Shown: in pieces, positions 11,689 through 48,071 of the stretch | How the letters are laid out: every line of letters begins with the position of its first letter | Position numbering within the stretch: position 1 is the stretch's first letter | Origin: Symbiobacterium thermophilum IAM 14863 | GTDB taxonomy: Bacteria; Bacillota; Sulfobacillia; Symbiobacteriales; Symbiobacteriaceae | NCBI RefSeq assembly: GCF_000009905.1 | Contig: NC_006177.1 | Span: 2,914,001-2,978,000, forward strand | Length of the DNA: 64,000 nt | Reading direction: 5' to 3' | The notes under the pieces: model-generated | Databases searched by the model: none | What the model saw: the letters and a program-made list of their open reading frames with translations, nothing else | Told to the model about the DNA's origin: nothing | Translations under genes and position numbers: made by a program

Positions 11689-13008
11689 CGATCGAGTAGG
11701 AGGGGGCGGCTAGCCCCCGTCCTCTCACACCACCGGACATGCGGGTCCGCATCCGGCGGTTCGCCAGGATTGACGAGTCGCTTCATAACATTCGGTCAGG
11801 CTTATCAGCCCCTGGGCACGCCAGTAGGCGTCGCCCAGGGCGCTGTTTAGTGGGCCACCTGCCATCCGCCACGGGCCTTTGCGGCTGTTGGCGAGTTGGT
11901 GGACTACCCATTCGGGCAAACCGAGGGCGCGCAACTCCCGAAAGCGCGTGCGTACACGCTTCCACTGCTTCCATACGCATGCTCGCAGCCGACGCTTCAG
12001 CCATCCTTCGAGTCTTTCAAAGGCTGACCTGGCATCGGAGAGCGCATAGTACCCAACCCAGCCCCGCAAGTAAGCATTCAGGCGCCGGATTCGGTCCTCC
12101 ATGCTCTGGCTGCGGTTGCGGTCCGTCAGCGTGCGGAGCTTGTCCTTCACGCGCTTCAGGCTCTTCGGGGCCAGCCGGATGCGCACTCCCCGGTGCTTGT
12201 AGAAGCTAAACCCGAGGAACTGCCGCTTCCACGGCCGGTCCACTGCGCTCTTCTCCTCGTTGACCTTCAGCCGTAACCGCTCCTGCAGGAAGTGGCGCAC
12301 GCTCCTGTAGACCCGTTCTCCCGCCCGCTTGCTGCGGACGTAGATGTTGCAGTCATCGGCGTACCGGACAAAGTGGTGGCCACGGCGCTCCAGCTCCTTG
12401 TCGAGGTCATCCAGCAGGATGTTCGCCAGCAGCGGACTCAGCGGACCGCCCTGCGGCGTCCCTTCCTCCGTCGCCACGACTACCCCGTTCAGCATGACCC
12501 CGGCCTGTAAGTACCGCCGGATCAGCCGCAGCACACGCTTATCCGTTACCCGCCGCGCCACGCGGGCCATCAGCACGTCGTGGTTGACCCGGTCGAAGAA
12601 CTTCTCCAGGTCCATGTCCACGACCCAGTCGTACCCTTCCTCCACGTACTGACGTGCCTTCCTGACCGCATCATGACCCCGCCGCCCCGGCCGAAAGCCG
12701 TAGCTGGATTCGGAGAATGTCGGGTCAAAGATCGGCGTCAGTACTTGCAGGAGTGCCTGCTGGATCAGGCGGTCCATCACGGTGGGAATACCCAACATCC
12801 GCTTGCCGCCGCCCGGTTTCGGGATTTCGACCCGGCGGACTGGCTGCGGTCTGTAGGTCCCCCGGAGCAGTTCCTCACGGATGCGCTCCCACTCCGAGCG
12901 GATCTGGTCCCGCAGCCGTTCGGTGGGGACACCGTCCTCGCCTGGGGCGCCTCCGTTCCGCTCCACCCGTTTCAGGGCGGCCAGCATGTTCTCCCTGGCC
13001 ACCACCTG
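11689..13008 (-). mobile_element. 5'-truncated class C group II intron (copy 1)
   Basis: From the shared 3' end (on the plus strand CGATCGAGTAGG) to 13008 the sequence is nearly identical to the intact intron at 20412-22293, including domains V and VI (hairpin GCCGGATGCGGACCCGCATG region) and the maturase gene. At 13009 identity stops abruptly, just two codons after the maturase start. All 5' ribozyme domains are therefore missing and the copy cannot splice itself. Confidence 0.85.
11725..13008 (-). pseudogene. ltrA: Group II intron reverse transcriptase/maturase lacking its start
   Basis: The frame matches the intact maturase of copy 2 from residue 3 (QVVARENMLAALKRVERNGG) to the end, with the reverse transcriptase catalytic motif VRYADDCN and the maturase X domain (LRGWVGYYALSDARSAF). 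The native ATG and ribosome binding site were lost at the junction at 13009. The open frame continues upstream into foreign sequence, giving a chimeric N-terminus. A protein could still be made from the internal ATG at residue 9. If made, it might act in trans on other copies; this is inference. Confidence 0.8.
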
Positions 13009-13193
13009 GTGCTGCCGGTGGGATCGACGAGCAGACGCATGCGCCGGACCCGGAAGTCGTTGCCAAGCCCGTGACAAGGCGATTCACGGCGGGCGAGAAG
13101 GCCCGGATTCTAGCAGAGGCTGATCAGTGTCGTCGTGGCGAGTTGGGGGCACTGTGTCGGCGGGAAGGGATCTACTGGTCCACACTCCGCACC
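13009..13193 (+). pseudogene. Fragment of an IS3-family orfA-like transposase
   Basis: Plus-strand codons read VTRRFTAGEKARILAEADQC, then GELGALCRREGIYWSTL, which matches the N-terminal helix-turn-helix of IS3-type OrfA proteins. The fragment starts at the point where the truncated intron ends and stops where the 75-bp array begins. No inverted repeat or orfB is present, so only a scrap of the element remains. It proves that this junction was built by more than one event. Confidence 0.65.
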
Positions 13194-14215
13194 TCAGGTC
13201 CTGCGCGTCAGCCCCCTCCCCGCCCCGACTCACGCGCAGAATCTGAACCAGCCGGCCCGGACCTACCTCAGATTCTGCGCGTCTGCCCCCTCCCCACCGC
13301 TGGCTCACGCGCAGAATCTGAACCGGCCAGCCCGCACCAACCTCAGATTCTGCGCGTCAGCCCCCTCCTCACCCCAAGCGCTCGCGCAGAATCTGAACCA
13401 GCCGGCCCGCACCAACCTCAGATTCTGCGCGTCTCCCCCCTCCCCACCGCTGGCTCACGCGCAGAATTTGAACCGGCCAGCCCGGGCCAACCTCAGATTC
13501 TGCGCGTCAGCCCCCTACCCACCCCTGACTCACGCGCAGAATCTGTACCGGCAGCCCTCGGCAACCTCAGGTCCTGCGCGTCGGCCCCCTCCCCGCCCCA
13601 ACTCACGCGCAGAATCTGAACCAGCCGGCCCGCACCAACCTCAGATTCTGCGCGTCAGCCCGCTCCTCACCCCAAGCGCTCGCGCAGAATCTGAACCAGC
13701 CGGCCCGCACCAACCTCAGATTCTGCGCGTCAGCCCCCTCCCCGCCCCAGCCCACGCGCAGAATCTGAACCAGCCGGCCCGCACCAACCTCACATTCTGC
13801 GCGTCTGCCCCCTCCCCACCGCTGGCTCACGCGCAGAATCTGTACCGGCCAGCCCTCGGCAACCTCAGGTCTTGCGCGTCAGCCCCCTCCCCGCCCCAAC
13901 TCACGCGCAGAATCTGAACCAGCCGGCCCGGACCTACCTCAGATTCTGCGCGTCTGCCCCCTCCCCACCGCTGGCTCACGCGCAGAATTTGAACCGGCCA
14001 GCCCGCACCAACCTCAGATTCTGCGCGTCGTCCCCCTCCCCACCCCTGACTCACGCGCAGAATTTGAACCGGCCTCCCCAGGCCAACCTCAGATTTTGCG
14101 CGTCTGCCCCCTCCTCACCCCAGGCGCACGCGCAGAATTTGAACCAGCCAGCCCGCACCTGCCTCCGATTCTGCGCGTCATCCCCCTCCTCACCCCAGCT
14201 CACACGCTGAACCTG
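13194..14215 (+). repeat. Array 1: about 14 tandem 75-bp palindromic units
   Basis: Units start with CACGCGCAGAATCTGAACC at 13231, 13306, 13381, 13456, 13531, 13604, 13679, 13753, 13828, 13902, 13977, 14052 and 14127, with a degenerate unit at 14201. The period is 75 bases with occasional 73-74. Each unit has a left arm (ACGCGCAGAATCTGA), a loop of about 22 bases rich in GCC, a right arm that is its exact complement (TCAGATTCTGCGCGT), and a C-rich linker such as CAGCCCCCTCCCCACC. Frames are open on both strands because the period is a multiple of three, but 73-74-base units break every frame, so coding is unlikely. Confidence 0.92.
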
Positions 14216-14434
14216 AACCTGTCATCCCCGTCAACCAGGCATCTGTCACCTCGGCCGTCTCCCCGAAGCCGGCATGCGCTCACCACCCGTGCGCAGGGCC
14301 CGGGCAACGCTCTTCACACATGCTACAACCATACTGCTAGTACCCGCGCAGGATCTGTAACGAAATGGGAATCAATTCCTGATCCTGGCAGGACTCTGCG
14401 TCCGAATAGCGAACTAATATTCGGGTGATGTGAT
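14216..14434. other. Spacer between array 1 and the nuclease-like gene
   Basis: About 220 bases with no gene. It includes CGCGCAGGATCTGTAACG near 14353, a decayed echo of the array arm, and presumably the promoter of the next gene, for which no strong match was found. Confidence 0.4.
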
Positions 14435-15475
14435 GTGACGGTCCATTTCCTCCCCAGCCAGGTAAAGGTGCCGCGCCACATCCTCCTGCACGACCAGTTG
14501 ACTCCGGCGGCGAAAGTCCTGTGGGCAGGGCTTCAGCTGCGCCCCAAGAACCAAGAACACCTCGCGCAACTCTGCGGCCTCTCCCAGGCCAGCATTAAAC
14601 CGGGGCAAACCCAACTCGAACGGTTCTCCCTGCTCAACCCCGGCCCGTTCCCCAGGGCCGACTGGGCGTTCCTCCCGGTTGACCTTCTCCGCACCAAGCC
14701 CGTCCATCCTCAGGCGAAGATCACTTACGCGGCCATCCAGCTGCTGCCCACGTTTGCAGACGGCGTCGCCGAGGCGACCACTGAACAGCTGACGCAACTG
14801 ACCGGCCGGCATCCGGCAACCGTGCGGAGGGCGCTGCGAAGCCTCGTCGACGCGGGTTGGCTCCAAGTTCGCCGATCCGGGAGAACGAACGTTCTACAGA
14901 TCCTGGTTCTCAACCCCCAACTCGAAGCCCAGAAGAGCATGATCGCCCAGATCAACCGCAGGCTGGAAAGGGCGCCCTACCTGGGTGAAGCGATCATGCG
15001 CGAGTGGCTCACCTTGACGGTCGACCGGGACAACTTCGAGGACGACGCTTCACCCGGCTTTCTCGTCAACCCCTACACCGGCGAGGAGTTGAAGATCGAC
15101 CGCCTCTACCCGCCGGACGTGGGGTTCGAGTTCAACGGCCCTCAGCACTACGGCCCGACGGACCTCTATCCCAACGAAGAGCAGGCGCGCAGGCAGATGG
15201 GGCGCGACCTCATCAAGCAGGCCATCTGCACGCAACGGGGGATTCTCCTGGTGACCATTCACGCCGAGGACCTCTCGCTGGAAGGCATGCTGAAACGGCT
15301 CCCGGACCGGCTGCCGCTGCGCAGCCTCGACCACAAGGAGCTCGTCATCGCCCATCTGCAGTCCGTCAGCAGGGCGTACCGGCAGAAGGTCCCGCTCCCT
15401 CCACCTGTGCCCAAACAGGCGTGCCCACCCGGGTACGCGACGGGCGGGAACGCGCAACAGTACGCGTCCCGGTAA
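14435..15475 (+). CDS. Winged-helix protein with a PD-(D/E)XK endonuclease-like C-terminal domain
   Basis: A 346-residue protein starting at GTG with a weak ribosome binding site. Residues 1-65 look like a replication-initiator type helix-turn-helix (KVPRHILLHDQLTPAAKVLW). Residues 95-150 form a second winged helix (EQLTQLTGRHPATVRRALRS, followed by AGWLQVRRSG). Residues 195-300 resemble Vsr/DUF559-like nucleases: KIDRLYPPDVGFEFNGPQHY carries the D...ExN core, followed by RDLIKQAICTQRGILLVTI. The family was not recognised by name, so both DNA binding and cleavage are inferred from the fold pattern. It sits between two tandem repeat blocks and codes on the same strand as array 1. Its tail (KVPLPPPVPKQACPPGY) is disordered. 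Confidence 0.7.
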   Translation: MTVHFLPSQVKVPRHILLHDQLTPAAKVLWAGLQLRPKNQEHLAQLCGLSQASIKPGQTQLERFSLLNPGPFPRADWAFLPVDLLRTKPVHPQAKITYAAIQLLPTFADGVAEATTEQLTQLTGRHPATVRRALRSLVDAGWLQVRRSGRTNVLQILVLNPQLEAQKSMIAQINRRLERAPYLGEAIMREWLTLTVDRDNFEDDASPGFLVNPYTGEELKIDRLYPPDVGFEFNGPQHYGPTDLYPNEEQARRQMGRDLIKQAICTQRGILLVTIHAEDLSLEGMLKRLPDRLPLRSLDHKELVIAHLQSVSRAYRQKVPLPPPVPKQACPPGYATGGNAQQYASR

Positions 15476-15519: not shown

Positions 15520-15760
15520 ACTGCCCAACAGGTCCCTCCGGCCGTCCCAGGCGACACGTTCCCAGCCCCAATAGGCCCCCCGGCCGTCCCAGGCGACACG
15601 TTCCCTGCCCCAACAGGCCCCTCCGGCCGTCCCAGGCGACACGTTCCCTGCCCCAACAGGCCCCCCCTGGCCGTCCCAGGCTACATGATCCTTGCCCAAC
15701 AGGCCCCTCCGGCCGTCATAGGCAACACGTTCCCTGCCTCAACGGCCTCGCCAGCCTTTC
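15520..15760 (+). repeat. Five tandem repeats of 42-44 bp
   Basis: GCCGTCCCAGGCGACACGTT recurs at 15541, 15583 and 15626, with diverged copies at 15670 and 15712. Units are joined by a CCCCAACAGGCCCCTCCG-like linker. It starts about 45 bases after the nuclease-like gene. The antisense frame through it encodes 14-residue repeats but has no plausible start, so it is treated as a DNA repeat. Confidence 0.85.
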
Positions 15761-20411: not shown

Positions 20412-22293
20412 CGATCGAGTAGGAGGGGGCGGCTAGCCCCCGTCCTCTCACACCACCGGACATGCGGGTCCGCATCCGGCGGTTCGCCAGGATTGACGAG
20501 TCGCTTCATAGCATTCGGTCAGGCTTATCAGCCCCTGGGCACGCCAGTAGGCGTCGCCCAGGGCGCTGTTTAGTGGGCCACCTGCCATTCGCCACGGGCC
20601 TTTGCGGCTGTTGGCGAGTTGGTAGACTACCCATTCGGGCAAACCGAGGGCGCGCAACTCCCGAAAGCGCGTGCGTACACGCTTCCACTGCTTCCATACG
20701 CATGCTCGCAGCCGACGCTTCAGCCATCCTTCGAGTCTTTCAAAGGCTGACCTGGCATCGGAGAGCGCATAGTACCCAACCCAGCCCCGCAAGTAGGCAT
20801 TCAGGCGCCGGATTCGGTCCTCCATGCTCTGGCTGCGGTTGCGGTCCGTCAGCGTGCGGAGCTTGTCCTTCACGCGTTTCAGGCTCTTCGGGGCCAGCCG
20901 GATGCGCACTCCCCGGTGCTTGTAGAAGCTAAACCCGAGGAACTGCCGCTTCCACGGCCGGTCCACTGCGCTCTTCTCCTCGTTGACCTTCAGCCGTAAC
21001 CGCTCCTGCAGGAAGTGGCGCACGCTCCTGTAGACCCGTTCTCCCGCCCGCTTGCTGCGGACGTAGATGTTGCAGTCATCGGCGTACCGGACAAAGTGGT
21101 GGCCACGGCGCTCCAGCTCCTTGTCGAGGTCATCCAGCAGGATGTTCGCCAGCAGCGGACTCAGCGGACCGCCCTGCGGCGTCCCTTCCTCCGTCGCCAC
21201 GACCACCCCGTTCAGCATGACCCCGGCCTGTAAGTACCGCCGGATCAGCCGCAGCACACGCTTATCCGTTACCCGCCGCGCCACGCGGGCCATCAGCACG
21301 TCGTGGTTGACCCGGTCGAAGAACTTCTCCAGGTCCATGTCCACGACCCAGTCGTACCCTTCCTCCACGTACTGACGTGCCTTCCTGACCGCATCATGAC
21401 CCCGCCGCCCCGGCCGAAAGCCGTAGCTGGATTCGGAGAATGTCGGGTCAAAGATCGGCGTCAGTACTTGCAGGAGTGCCTGTTGGATCAGGCGGTCCAT
21501 CACGGTGGGAATCCCCAGCATCCGCTTGCCGCCGCCCGGTTTCGGGATTTCGACCCGGCGGACTGGCTGCGGTCTGTAGGTCCCCTGGAGCAGTTCCTCA
21601 CGGATGCGGCTCCACTCCACGCGAATCTGGTCCCGCAGCCGTTCGGTGGGGACACCGTCCACGCCGGGAGCGCCTCCGTTCCGCTCCACCCGTTTCAGGG
21701 CGGCCAGCATGTTCTCCCTGGCCACCACCTGCTCCATCAGGTTGCTGTGCTCCCCGCGGGGTGACGTTCCGTCTTGTGCCGGCTGCCCACTCCGCCCTCT
21801 CGCCGTCCCTTGCGGCTTCACCGCTACCTCCGGCGAGCAGGTCCCGTTCGGGGTCTTCTGCGTTTGTCGCGGGCTGCTCGAACGCAACGGGTTCACCCCT
21901 CTCCTGACGTTCGGCCCTTCCCGGTCGGGGCGTCCCCCTGCCGGTACTATGGCCTTTGCTGACTTCTGCCGGTTCAGCTGCGTCTCCCGACGCAGGTTAC
22001 CAGCGTTGCTGGCGTTCCCGGCAGATCTCCCCGGGTAAGAACGCTGACCTTCACCCCGCACCCGCCCCATCTACCGCACCGCCCTTTGGCAGCTTCGGGT
22101 TTTGCTGTGTTCGGCCAGCTCACCCGAGCGGCACAGCCTCCTATGGGGTTCGTGTTCCTCGGGTCGTGGCTTTGCCTCGGGCTTCCTTCAGATTCCGCCT
22201 CACGACGGACACCCTTGCCTTTGGCTAACGGGCTGGTGCTGCCTCGCCCGTAGCGGACTTTCACCGCCAAGTCAGCGCCCATGCCGGGCACAC
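20412..22293 (-). mobile_element. Intact class C group II intron (copy 2)
   Basis: The 5' end (minus strand) is GTGTGCCCGGCATGGGCGCT, the typical GUGYGCCC start. Domains V and VI and the 3' end lie at 20412-20490. It encodes a maturase without an endonuclease domain, as usual for class C. It is inserted four bases (TTCG) after the stem of the intrinsic terminator of the DUF4870 gene, which is the known target choice of class C introns. Length is about 1.88 kb. Confidence 0.88.
20448..21737 (-). CDS. ltrA: Group II intron reverse transcriptase/maturase
   Basis: A 429-residue intron-encoded protein that folds the intron for splicing and copies it into DNA during retrohoming. The reverse transcriptase fingers and palm cover residues 1-300 (GVPTERLRDQIR, SSYGFRPGRRGHDAVRKARQ, EEGTPQGGPLSPLLANILLD, catalytic VRYADDCNIYV). 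The X/maturase domain follows (DRNRSQSMEDRIRRLNAYLR). There is no HNH endonuclease domain. The ATG at 21737 follows GGGGAG at about 12 bases; upstream in-frame codons to 22070 lie in the structured ribozyme and are not counted. It is nearly identical to the start-less copy 1, so transposition was recent. Confidence 0.92.
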   Translation of the reverse strand: MEQVVARENMLAALKRVERNGGAPGVDGVPTERLRDQIRVEWSRIREELLQGTYRPQPVRRVEIPKPGGGKRMLGIPTVMDRLIQQALLQVLTPIFDPTFSESSYGFRPGRRGHDAVRKARQYVEEGYDWVVDMDLEKFFDRVNHDVLMARVARRVTDKRVLRLIRRYLQAGVMLNGVVVATEEGTPQGGPLSPLLANILLDDLDKELERRGHHFVRYADDCNIYVRSKRAGERVYRSVRHFLQERLRLKVNEEKSAVDRPWKRQFLGFSFYKHRGVRIRLAPKSLKRVKDKLRTLTDRNRSQSMEDRIRRLNAYLRGWVGYYALSDARSAFERLEGWLKRRLRACVWKQWKRVRTRFRELRALGLPEWVVYQLANSRKGPWRMAGGPLNSALGDAYWRAQGLISLTECYEATRQSWRTAGCGPACPVV

Positions 22294-47024: not shown

Positions 47025-48071
47025 GCCCGCGCAGAACCTGAACTCGCCTCCAACGCCCGACCCCAGATTCTGCGCGCCGGCCACCTCCCCGCCCCCCGCT
47101 CACGCGCAAAACCTGAACCTACCGCCCACGCCCAACCACAGATTCTGCGCGCCAGCCCCCTGCTCGCCCCCCGTTCACGCGCAAAACCTGAACCAGCCAT
47201 CCACACCCGACTTCAGATTCTGCGCGCCGGCCCCCTGCTCGCCCCCCGCTCACGCGCAAAACCTGAACCTGCCGCCCACGCCCAACCACAGATTGTGCGC
47301 ACCAGCCACCTCCCCACCCCCCGCTCACGCGCAAAACCTGAACTCGCTGCCCACACCCGATCTCAGATTCTGCGCGCCAACCCCCTGCTCGCCCCCCGTT
47401 CACGCGCAGAACCTGAACTCGCTGCCCACACCCGACCTCAGATTCTGCGCGCCGGCCACCTGCTCGCCCCCCGTTCACGCGCAAAACCTGAACTCCCCTC
47501 CAACGCCCGACCTCAGATTCTGCGCGCCAGCCCCCTGCCCATCCCACGCTCACGCGCAAAACTTGAACTCGCCTCCCACGCCCGATCTCAGATTCTGCGC
47601 GCCGGCCACCTGCCCGCCCCCCGTTCACGCGCAAAACCTGAACTCGCCTCCCACACCCGACCCCAGATTCTGCGCGCCAGCCCCCTGCCCGCCCCCGCTC
47701 ACGCGCAAAACCTGAACTCGCCTCCAACGCCCGACCCCAGATTCTGCGCGCCAGCCCCCTGCCCGCCCCCGCTCACGCGCAAAACCTGAACTTGCCGCCC
47801 ACAACCAACCCCAGATTGTGCGCGGCGGCCCCCTCCCCGCCCCCCGCTCACGCGCAGAACCTGAACTCGCCTCCCACACCCGACCCCAGATTCTGCGCGC
47901 CGGCCCCCTCCCCGACCACGTTCACGCGCAAAACCTGAACCTGCCGCCCACGTCCGACTTCAGATTCTGCGCGCCAATCCCCTCCTCACCCCTCGTTCAC
48001 GCGCACAACTTGAACCTGCCGCCCACGACCAACCCCAGACTGCGCGCGCCAGCCCCCTCCCCGCCCCTGCA
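47025..48071 (+). repeat. Array 2: about 14 tandem 75-bp units related to array 1
   Basis: Units starting CACGCGCAAAACCTGAAC begin at 47101, 47176, 47251, 47326, 47401, 47476, 47551, 47626, 47700, 47774, 47849, 47923 and 47998, after a first unit near 47025. The period is 75 with some 74. The right arm is CCAGATTCTGCGCGCC. Compared with array 1 the left arm has changed (AAAACC for AGAATC), so the palindrome is weaker. Loops are short variants of TCGCCTCCAACGCCCGA. The C-rich linkers are of the same kind as in array 1. Frames break at 74-base units. Confidence 0.92.

Follow-up and report, generated by a model that had tools for sequence, protein, structure and literature searches.

A predicted winged-helix nuclease and its putative cognate repeat arrays in the chromosome of Symbiobacterium thermophilum

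We propose that a gene in the window (the 64,000-nucleotide stretch of the Symbiobacterium thermophilum IAM 14863 chromosome analyzed here) encodes a site-specific DNA-binding nuclease whose partner is a family of repeat arrays found throughout the genome. This reading, which rests on sequence comparison and predicted structures, is given a probability of about 0.6. The genome carrying the window, a single contig of 3,566,135 bp, is referred to as G000; G001 and G002 are the other two genomes of the genus, G001 being the sister genome. The features of the window that bear on the proposal are the following.

13191..14219, no strand: cognate array of 75-bp units with 28 half-sites CGCGCARAAYCTG (14 per strand) in alternating orientation, +/- register 33 bp
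13233..13281, no strand: example of a 49-bp inverted pair, CGCGCAGAATCTGAAC ... CAGATTCTGCGCG, the proposed binding unit (sequence, half-site map)
14435..15475, plus strand: nuclease gene, two winged helices and an EDxHD/Vsr-like nuclease domain (ORF list, Pfam, AlphaFold2, structure matches)
14450..14644, plus strand: winged helix 1, residues 6-70 (AlphaFold2 model, RepE54/Pi match)
14660..14914, plus strand: winged helix 2, residues 76-160, Pfam HTH_36 (Pfam, AlphaFold2 model, RepE54/Pi match)
14981..15310, plus strand: nuclease domain, residues 183-292, with E185 (E or Q in the family), D222, E232, H238, D258 and K261 (domain model, structure matches, alignment)
15524..15747, no strand: 42/43-bp tandem repeat (TRF; single occurrence in the genome)
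47028..48067, no strand: orphan window-motif array in the same register (the 2961k site), between a peptide-transporter gene and a PIG-L-type gene (TRF, half-site map, site alignment)

The open reading frame begins with GTG and encodes 346 amino acids, in which Pfam detected winged helix 2 (HTH_36) alone. An AlphaFold2 model built on a 60-sequence alignment (mean pLDDT 92.7) consists of two winged helices and a C-terminal alpha/beta domain, in agreement with a sequence-only reading of this DNA that had proposed two DNA-binding winged helices. That reading had also described the N-terminus as initiator-like, and residues 5-161 indeed matched solved RepE54-iteron complexes (Z 9.1) and the Pi initiator (Z 8.3), both winged helices aligning to RepE54 and Pi together as a single two-domain unit. 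When the C-terminal domain was modeled alone (pLDDT 94.7), its top structure match was the catalytic domain of the EDxHD homing endonuclease I-Bth0305I (3r3p; Z 8.1, rmsd 2.8, 94 of 98 residues aligned); the Vsr-like character suggested earlier was recovered in the match to Vsr itself (1cw0, Z 7.7), and mitoribosomal and FASTK RAP-type domains and TnsA came next. Foldseek by itself gave no significant match, and when solved structures were searched by sequence, neither the full-length protein nor its nuclease domain returned anything useful except winged-helix regulators. The fold assignment comes from VIA re-ranking of structure matches, with Z scores of 7-9 that are moderate values; we trust it because the top rows are an EDxHD structure and Vsr for one part of the protein and RepE/Pi for the other.

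Sequence conservation within the family is consistent with this assignment. D222, E232, G235, H238, D258 and K261 are invariant in 60 of 60 family sequences. We infer the correspondence to the EDxHD set, in which residue 185 (Glu in 44 of the 60 and Gln in 16) is taken as the glutamate. PHROG homing-endonuclease families were matched by 54-55 of the 60 members, and DUF2726 gave weak matches in 14 of the 60 (best E 1.5e-4). Structure prediction yielded a nuclease fold with conserved acidic residues, and a non-nuclease outcome did not appear. The fold reading leans on which proteins top the match list and on the invariant residues. A phage origin of the gene was considered and rejected, since nothing matched beyond a short stretch of the nuclease domain in SPbeta-like staphylococcal phages (E 1e-6) and, weakly, three viral contigs. 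In the SPbeta-like phages MT955612.1 and KT429160.1 the matching sequence is a hypothetical protein that has the nuclease domain only in common with the window protein (35% identity over residues 183-281).

The array upstream of the gene has a period of 75 bp and 13.8 copies and ends 216 bp before the gene, and the 42/43-bp block starts 49 bp after the stop codon, so the placement of the gene between two repeats is as originally described. The two blocks had been assigned to one system; the upstream array is indeed linked to the gene by the evidence given below, but the 42-bp block is unique in the genome and probably lies outside the nuclease system, and it was rejected as a second target on the same ground. 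Beyond these repeats, the window contains a 5′-truncated group II intron copy at 11691-13077, whose reverse-transcriptase ORF ends 114 bp before the array, and another copy of the same intron at 20414-22209; two further arrays of the family (L016 and L018) each have an intact copy of this intron no more than about 300 bp away. An Rfam search found no RNA family at the arrays, with group II introns nearby only.

Seven family members, the window gene and six paralogues, are present in G000. Five of the seven have a tandem array directly upstream and a sixth has one 1.3 kb upstream, each with its own repeat (periods of 75, 86, 250, 204, 37 and 116 bp). We defined a strong array as one with a TRF score of at least 400 that ends within 500 bp upstream of the gene, and used as a control 315 predicted genes from twenty evenly spaced 20-kb stretches. 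Homologues do adjoin arrays, as the sequence-only reading had anticipated: a strong upstream array was found at 13 of 20 family genes in G000, G001 and G002, whereas 4 of the 315 control genes have one (binomial P about 1e-20). Wherever a family gene in Symbiobacterium has a strong array, it lies upstream of that gene, on one side only, and the genes are solitary and mostly syntenic between species. TRF found no array at L010, L139 or L143, nor at the three copies in G007. The family is present in 28 of 101 relatives searched, with up to twelve matches per genome. Among distant relatives in the wider class, 10 arrays were found near the gene where 1.7 were expected from the outer flanks (P 1e-5), a weaker link than within the genus in a set that includes many metagenome assemblies, which may lose arrays. 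In G087, which belongs to another family of the class, a relative with one winged helix has an upstream 128-bp array (L150:2430-2747), and the motif of that array occurs twice, at 65-bp spacing, at a second place (G087:C1:1008128).

The repeats of the window array share their geometry with other arrays in the genome. Ten arrays with about 200 half-sites have the CGCGCARAAYCTG core in common, at about 1.9 bits at most positions; their spacers carry 0.2-0.5 bit at most, that is, they are unconserved between arrays. Whatever the spacer, the inverted pairs of these ten arrays keep a 33-bp register in practically every case, and the other linker between half-sites is 41/42 bp, or 31 bp in one array. 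Similarly, pairs of the A1 motif, which belongs to another family array, are 34 apart in 15 of 15 cases from seven places, where the linker is 40, 41 or 51, and the A1 and window-motif pairs both span 49 bp. The pairs of the G001 motif at L134 are always 28 apart. A constant register combined with free spacer sequence is the pattern to be expected if a protein dimer were bound there, and a difference of roughly one helical turn between linkers would suit phased binding. The 49-bp inverted pair of fixed register would also be compatible with a dimer on a very long target.

Genome-wide counts of the motifs were obtained by pattern searches and from a 400-kb evenly spaced sample. The window motif CGCGCARAAYCTGAA has 157 matches in G000 with at most one mismatch, against 0 for the reversed control, and 0-7 matches, a background level, in each of 40 relatives. 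The G000 matches are grouped in about ten arrays, all intergenic or nearly so. The A1 motif has 69 matches at no fewer than 11 places (reversed control 0), and three of the five strong arrays in the 400-kb sample match a nuclease-linked array (two A1 and one A3). Taken together, these counts suggest that each nuclease has one home array and several elsewhere; home and orphan arrays were tested for A0, A1, A3 and the G001 counterpart. Spacers recur within each array rather than being unique, on which ground a CRISPR-like array was rejected. A 126-bp array at L153:11101-11865 contains a near-perfect inverted pair, GCCACGGCGGCTGGCCGTA, and is unlike every nuclease-linked array with which it was compared.

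The core motif is kept at orthologous loci of other species while the spacers differ, as seen for A1 (TGCACATTCCGCCTC), A3 (CCAAGTNGAAATCC) and A4 (AATGTGCACTTTC). Exact copies of the A2 motif TGAAGTTCCNACGNNTTGAGA lie upstream of the gene in G002 (three copies) and in G001 (two copies), and a related motif is found for A5 in G000 and G001. In a local-alignment matrix of the nuclease-linked arrays, the top between-genome pairs were the orthologous ones wherever both members have arrays. These data show that each paralogue of the predicted nuclease has its own repeat motif and that the inverted-pair geometry is kept while spacers vary. The region upstream of the A2 gene of G000 (L010, upstream of 8623, gene on the minus strand) has degenerate copies of the A2 motif and no array, and its syntenic orthologues keep intact copies; gene and motif there are possibly a decaying pair.

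Motif and nuclease also turn over together between species. The window gene and its counterpart at L134 in G001 are flanked by the same neighbors, which are 61-82% identical between the two loci; identity is 69% for the nuclease domain and 45% and 35% for the winged helices, with 70-84% and 76-77% domain identity in the same-motif pairs A4 and A5, and since the nuclease domain is also the slower part to diverge, compared with the winged helices, in the same-motif pairs A1, A2 and A3, this contrast between domains is suggestive only. The motif of the L134 array, AACTCCATGAGCCAC, differs from that of the window and has 23 matches in G001, at four loci or more, with 0 matches in G000, G002, G003 and G004. 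In trees, the window gene stands beside the A1 clade and the L134 gene beside another G001 copy. These placements indicate that the motif changed along with a lineage-specific duplication or replacement of the nuclease, rather than through point changes only.

Arrays were also compared at corresponding intergenic sites. At the glyS site an A1 array is present in G000 and G002, the G002 copy being in the variant of G002's own cognate array (GGGCAGAATGTGCA). Between the same flanking genes, G001 is without arrays at 2961k and 2338k and without the A3 array at 2602k, and G002 is without an array at 2325k; alignments of these empty sites revealed no target-site duplication. The dnaE site holds a window-type array in G000, A3-type sequence in G002 and a third family in G001. 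That third family is common to the sbcC-addB and dnaE sites of G001 (L177:1432-1849 and L179:1680-1995) and is unrelated to the nuclease-linked arrays seen. In other species, arrays of different families occupy both of these intergenic positions, which look like favored sites. These comparisons show that the repeat family changes when the predicted nuclease changes and that arrays are present or absent as whole blocks. Presence or absence of a whole array fits gain or loss alike, and loss would look identical.

We propose, at somewhat better than even odds, that the protein is a site-specific nuclease that binds inverted pairs and, by cutting, promotes the growth and spread of its own arrays. 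Each monomer would place its RepE/Pi-like winged helices on one half-site (here CGCGCARAAYCTG), and two monomers would fill an inverted pair of about 46-49 bp in the fixed 33-bp register, with successive pairs phased on the helix. The EDxHD domain would then break DNA in or near the pair, and recombinational repair between array copies could yield longer, homogenized arrays and carry arrays to new intergenic sites. The upstream array probably doubles as an autorepression site for the nuclease gene, and the nuclease-repeat pair would persist as a selfish or tolerated system, RAYT/REP-like, with rapid turnover of specificity. Among these steps, binding of the inverted pair by the nuclease is strongly suggested by the repeat geometry and the predicted fold, and cutting is implied because the putative catalytic residues are conserved; spread of the arrays through the nuclease is the weakest and least certain step. 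Self-cutting at ten or more chromosomal places would need tight restraint, which must be counted against this best explanation, as must the glutamine at position 185 in 16 of 60 members, the family genes at which TRF found no array and the lack of target-site duplications at the empty sites.

Other explanations of the gene-array pairing have to be weighed against this one. Coincidence, in which tandem repeats that are common in the genome happen to adjoin an ordinary gene, would find some comfort in the unique and apparently unrelated 42-bp block; we regard it as vanishingly improbable and reject it because of the excess of strong upstream arrays (13/20 versus 4/315), the motif common to orthologous loci and the genome-restricted motif families. 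A stronger rival than any other is that the protein binds DNA for regulation or to organize the chromosome, in which case the arrays would be operators or nucleoid-type sites and nuclease activity would be rare, lost or incidental. The helically phased inverted pairs, the intergenic position of the arrays, the array that precedes its own gene in every strong Symbiobacterium case and the winged-helix regulators and centromere binders among the fold matches would all be expected of such a protein. We nevertheless consider this role unlikely, given the invariance of D222, E232, H238, D258 and K261 in 60 sequences, the better conservation of the nuclease domain than of the winged helices in several pairs, and array sites that adjoin different genes in different species, unlike a conserved regulon.

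The sequence-only reading had raised a replication system and a defence locus, and neither idea fared well. An initiator that nicks to start replication at the iteron origin of an integrated or relic plasmid would account for the match of residues 5-161 to RepE54 and Pi bound to iteron DNA and for weak PHROG matches to phage initiators. Against it, no match was found among 72,556 plasmids, the loci are syntenic chromosomal genes with no replicon genes accompanying the dispersed sites, at least ten orphan arrays are without an initiator and seven paralogues with different motifs coexist. A plasmid iteron origin was rejected on the plasmid search, the chromosomal synteny and the arrangement of the sites as inverted pairs instead of direct iterons, and an initiator of any such kind is highly improbable. 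Only slight credence is likewise given to defence, with a nuclease that attacks incoming DNA and chromosomal arrays that serve as decoys or a store of specificity. Its specificity does change fast and its nuclease domain is related to phage homing enzymes; however, the motifs are abundant in the host genome and not avoided, no modification gene was recognized beside family genes, and the loci are solitary and conserved in position. PADLOC gave weak matches confined to the winged helix (best E 2.5e-4), and a known anti-phage family was dismissed on that basis.

Our preferred reading, a nuclease paired with its own arrays, may describe a chromosomal nuclease-repeat class that has gone undescribed, although we put this broader proposal at somewhat below even odds. 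Specificity and a genome-wide repeat family would be replaced together between close species, as a bacterial counterpart of a PRDM9-like chase in which a cutting specificity pursues its hotspots, and the class would be widespread in one Bacillota class with several orthogonal pairs per cell. If this is true, the bacterial chromosome would have a second, independently evolved way to carry and renew palindromic repeat families, through an enzyme class not previously linked, within the literature searched, to repeat maintenance. No paper on these arrays was found in the open-access literature; the original genome paper could mention repeats. About seven pairs per cell, each with a readable site, would amount to a natural code relating RepE-like winged helices to long DNA sites. 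The system would let one ask directly if cutting by the nuclease makes repeats grow and turn over, and the large tandem arrays of genomes like this one are not necessarily neutral.

The closest parallel is the RAYT/REP system (REPIN, BIME), in which a chromosomal enzyme gene lies beside its own palindromes and further copies are scattered through intergenic regions, frequently in alternating orientation (PMC2817692, PMC3116915). Both systems have a gene beside its own repeats and cognate repeats between genes. However, RAYTs are IS200/IS605-kin (Y1) transposases, whereas the window protein is a predicted winged-helix EDxHD nuclease, and here the putative protein sites form fixed-register pairs within long tandem arrays that flank the gene on a single side; the enzyme being unrelated, the nuclease-array system is not a RAYT/REP member. 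I-Bth0305I, which dimerizes on a target of nearly 60 bp (PMC3943268), resembles the window protein in catalytic fold and in a conserved D/H/D set, and its long target would have a counterpart in the proposed 49-bp inverted pair. In contrast to I-Bth0305I, no intron, intein or interrupted host gene was seen, the nuclease would act on multi-copy arrays of its own organism and DNA binding would fall to a RepE-like double winged helix. EDxHD homing endonucleases move by homing into alleles that lack their gene; here the genes are solitary and mostly syntenic between species, and the arrays come and go. The RepE/Pi (Rep_3) initiators share the tandem winged-helix fold and the repeated sites upstream of the gene, but here a nuclease domain is added and the sites are inverted and chromosomal, with no plasmid. 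Vsr and DUF2726 proteins are alike in nuclease fold and different in architecture and context. Based on these comparisons, the nuclease-array system would be an enzyme with its own dispersed repeats, and there is a fair chance that it merits a separate class.
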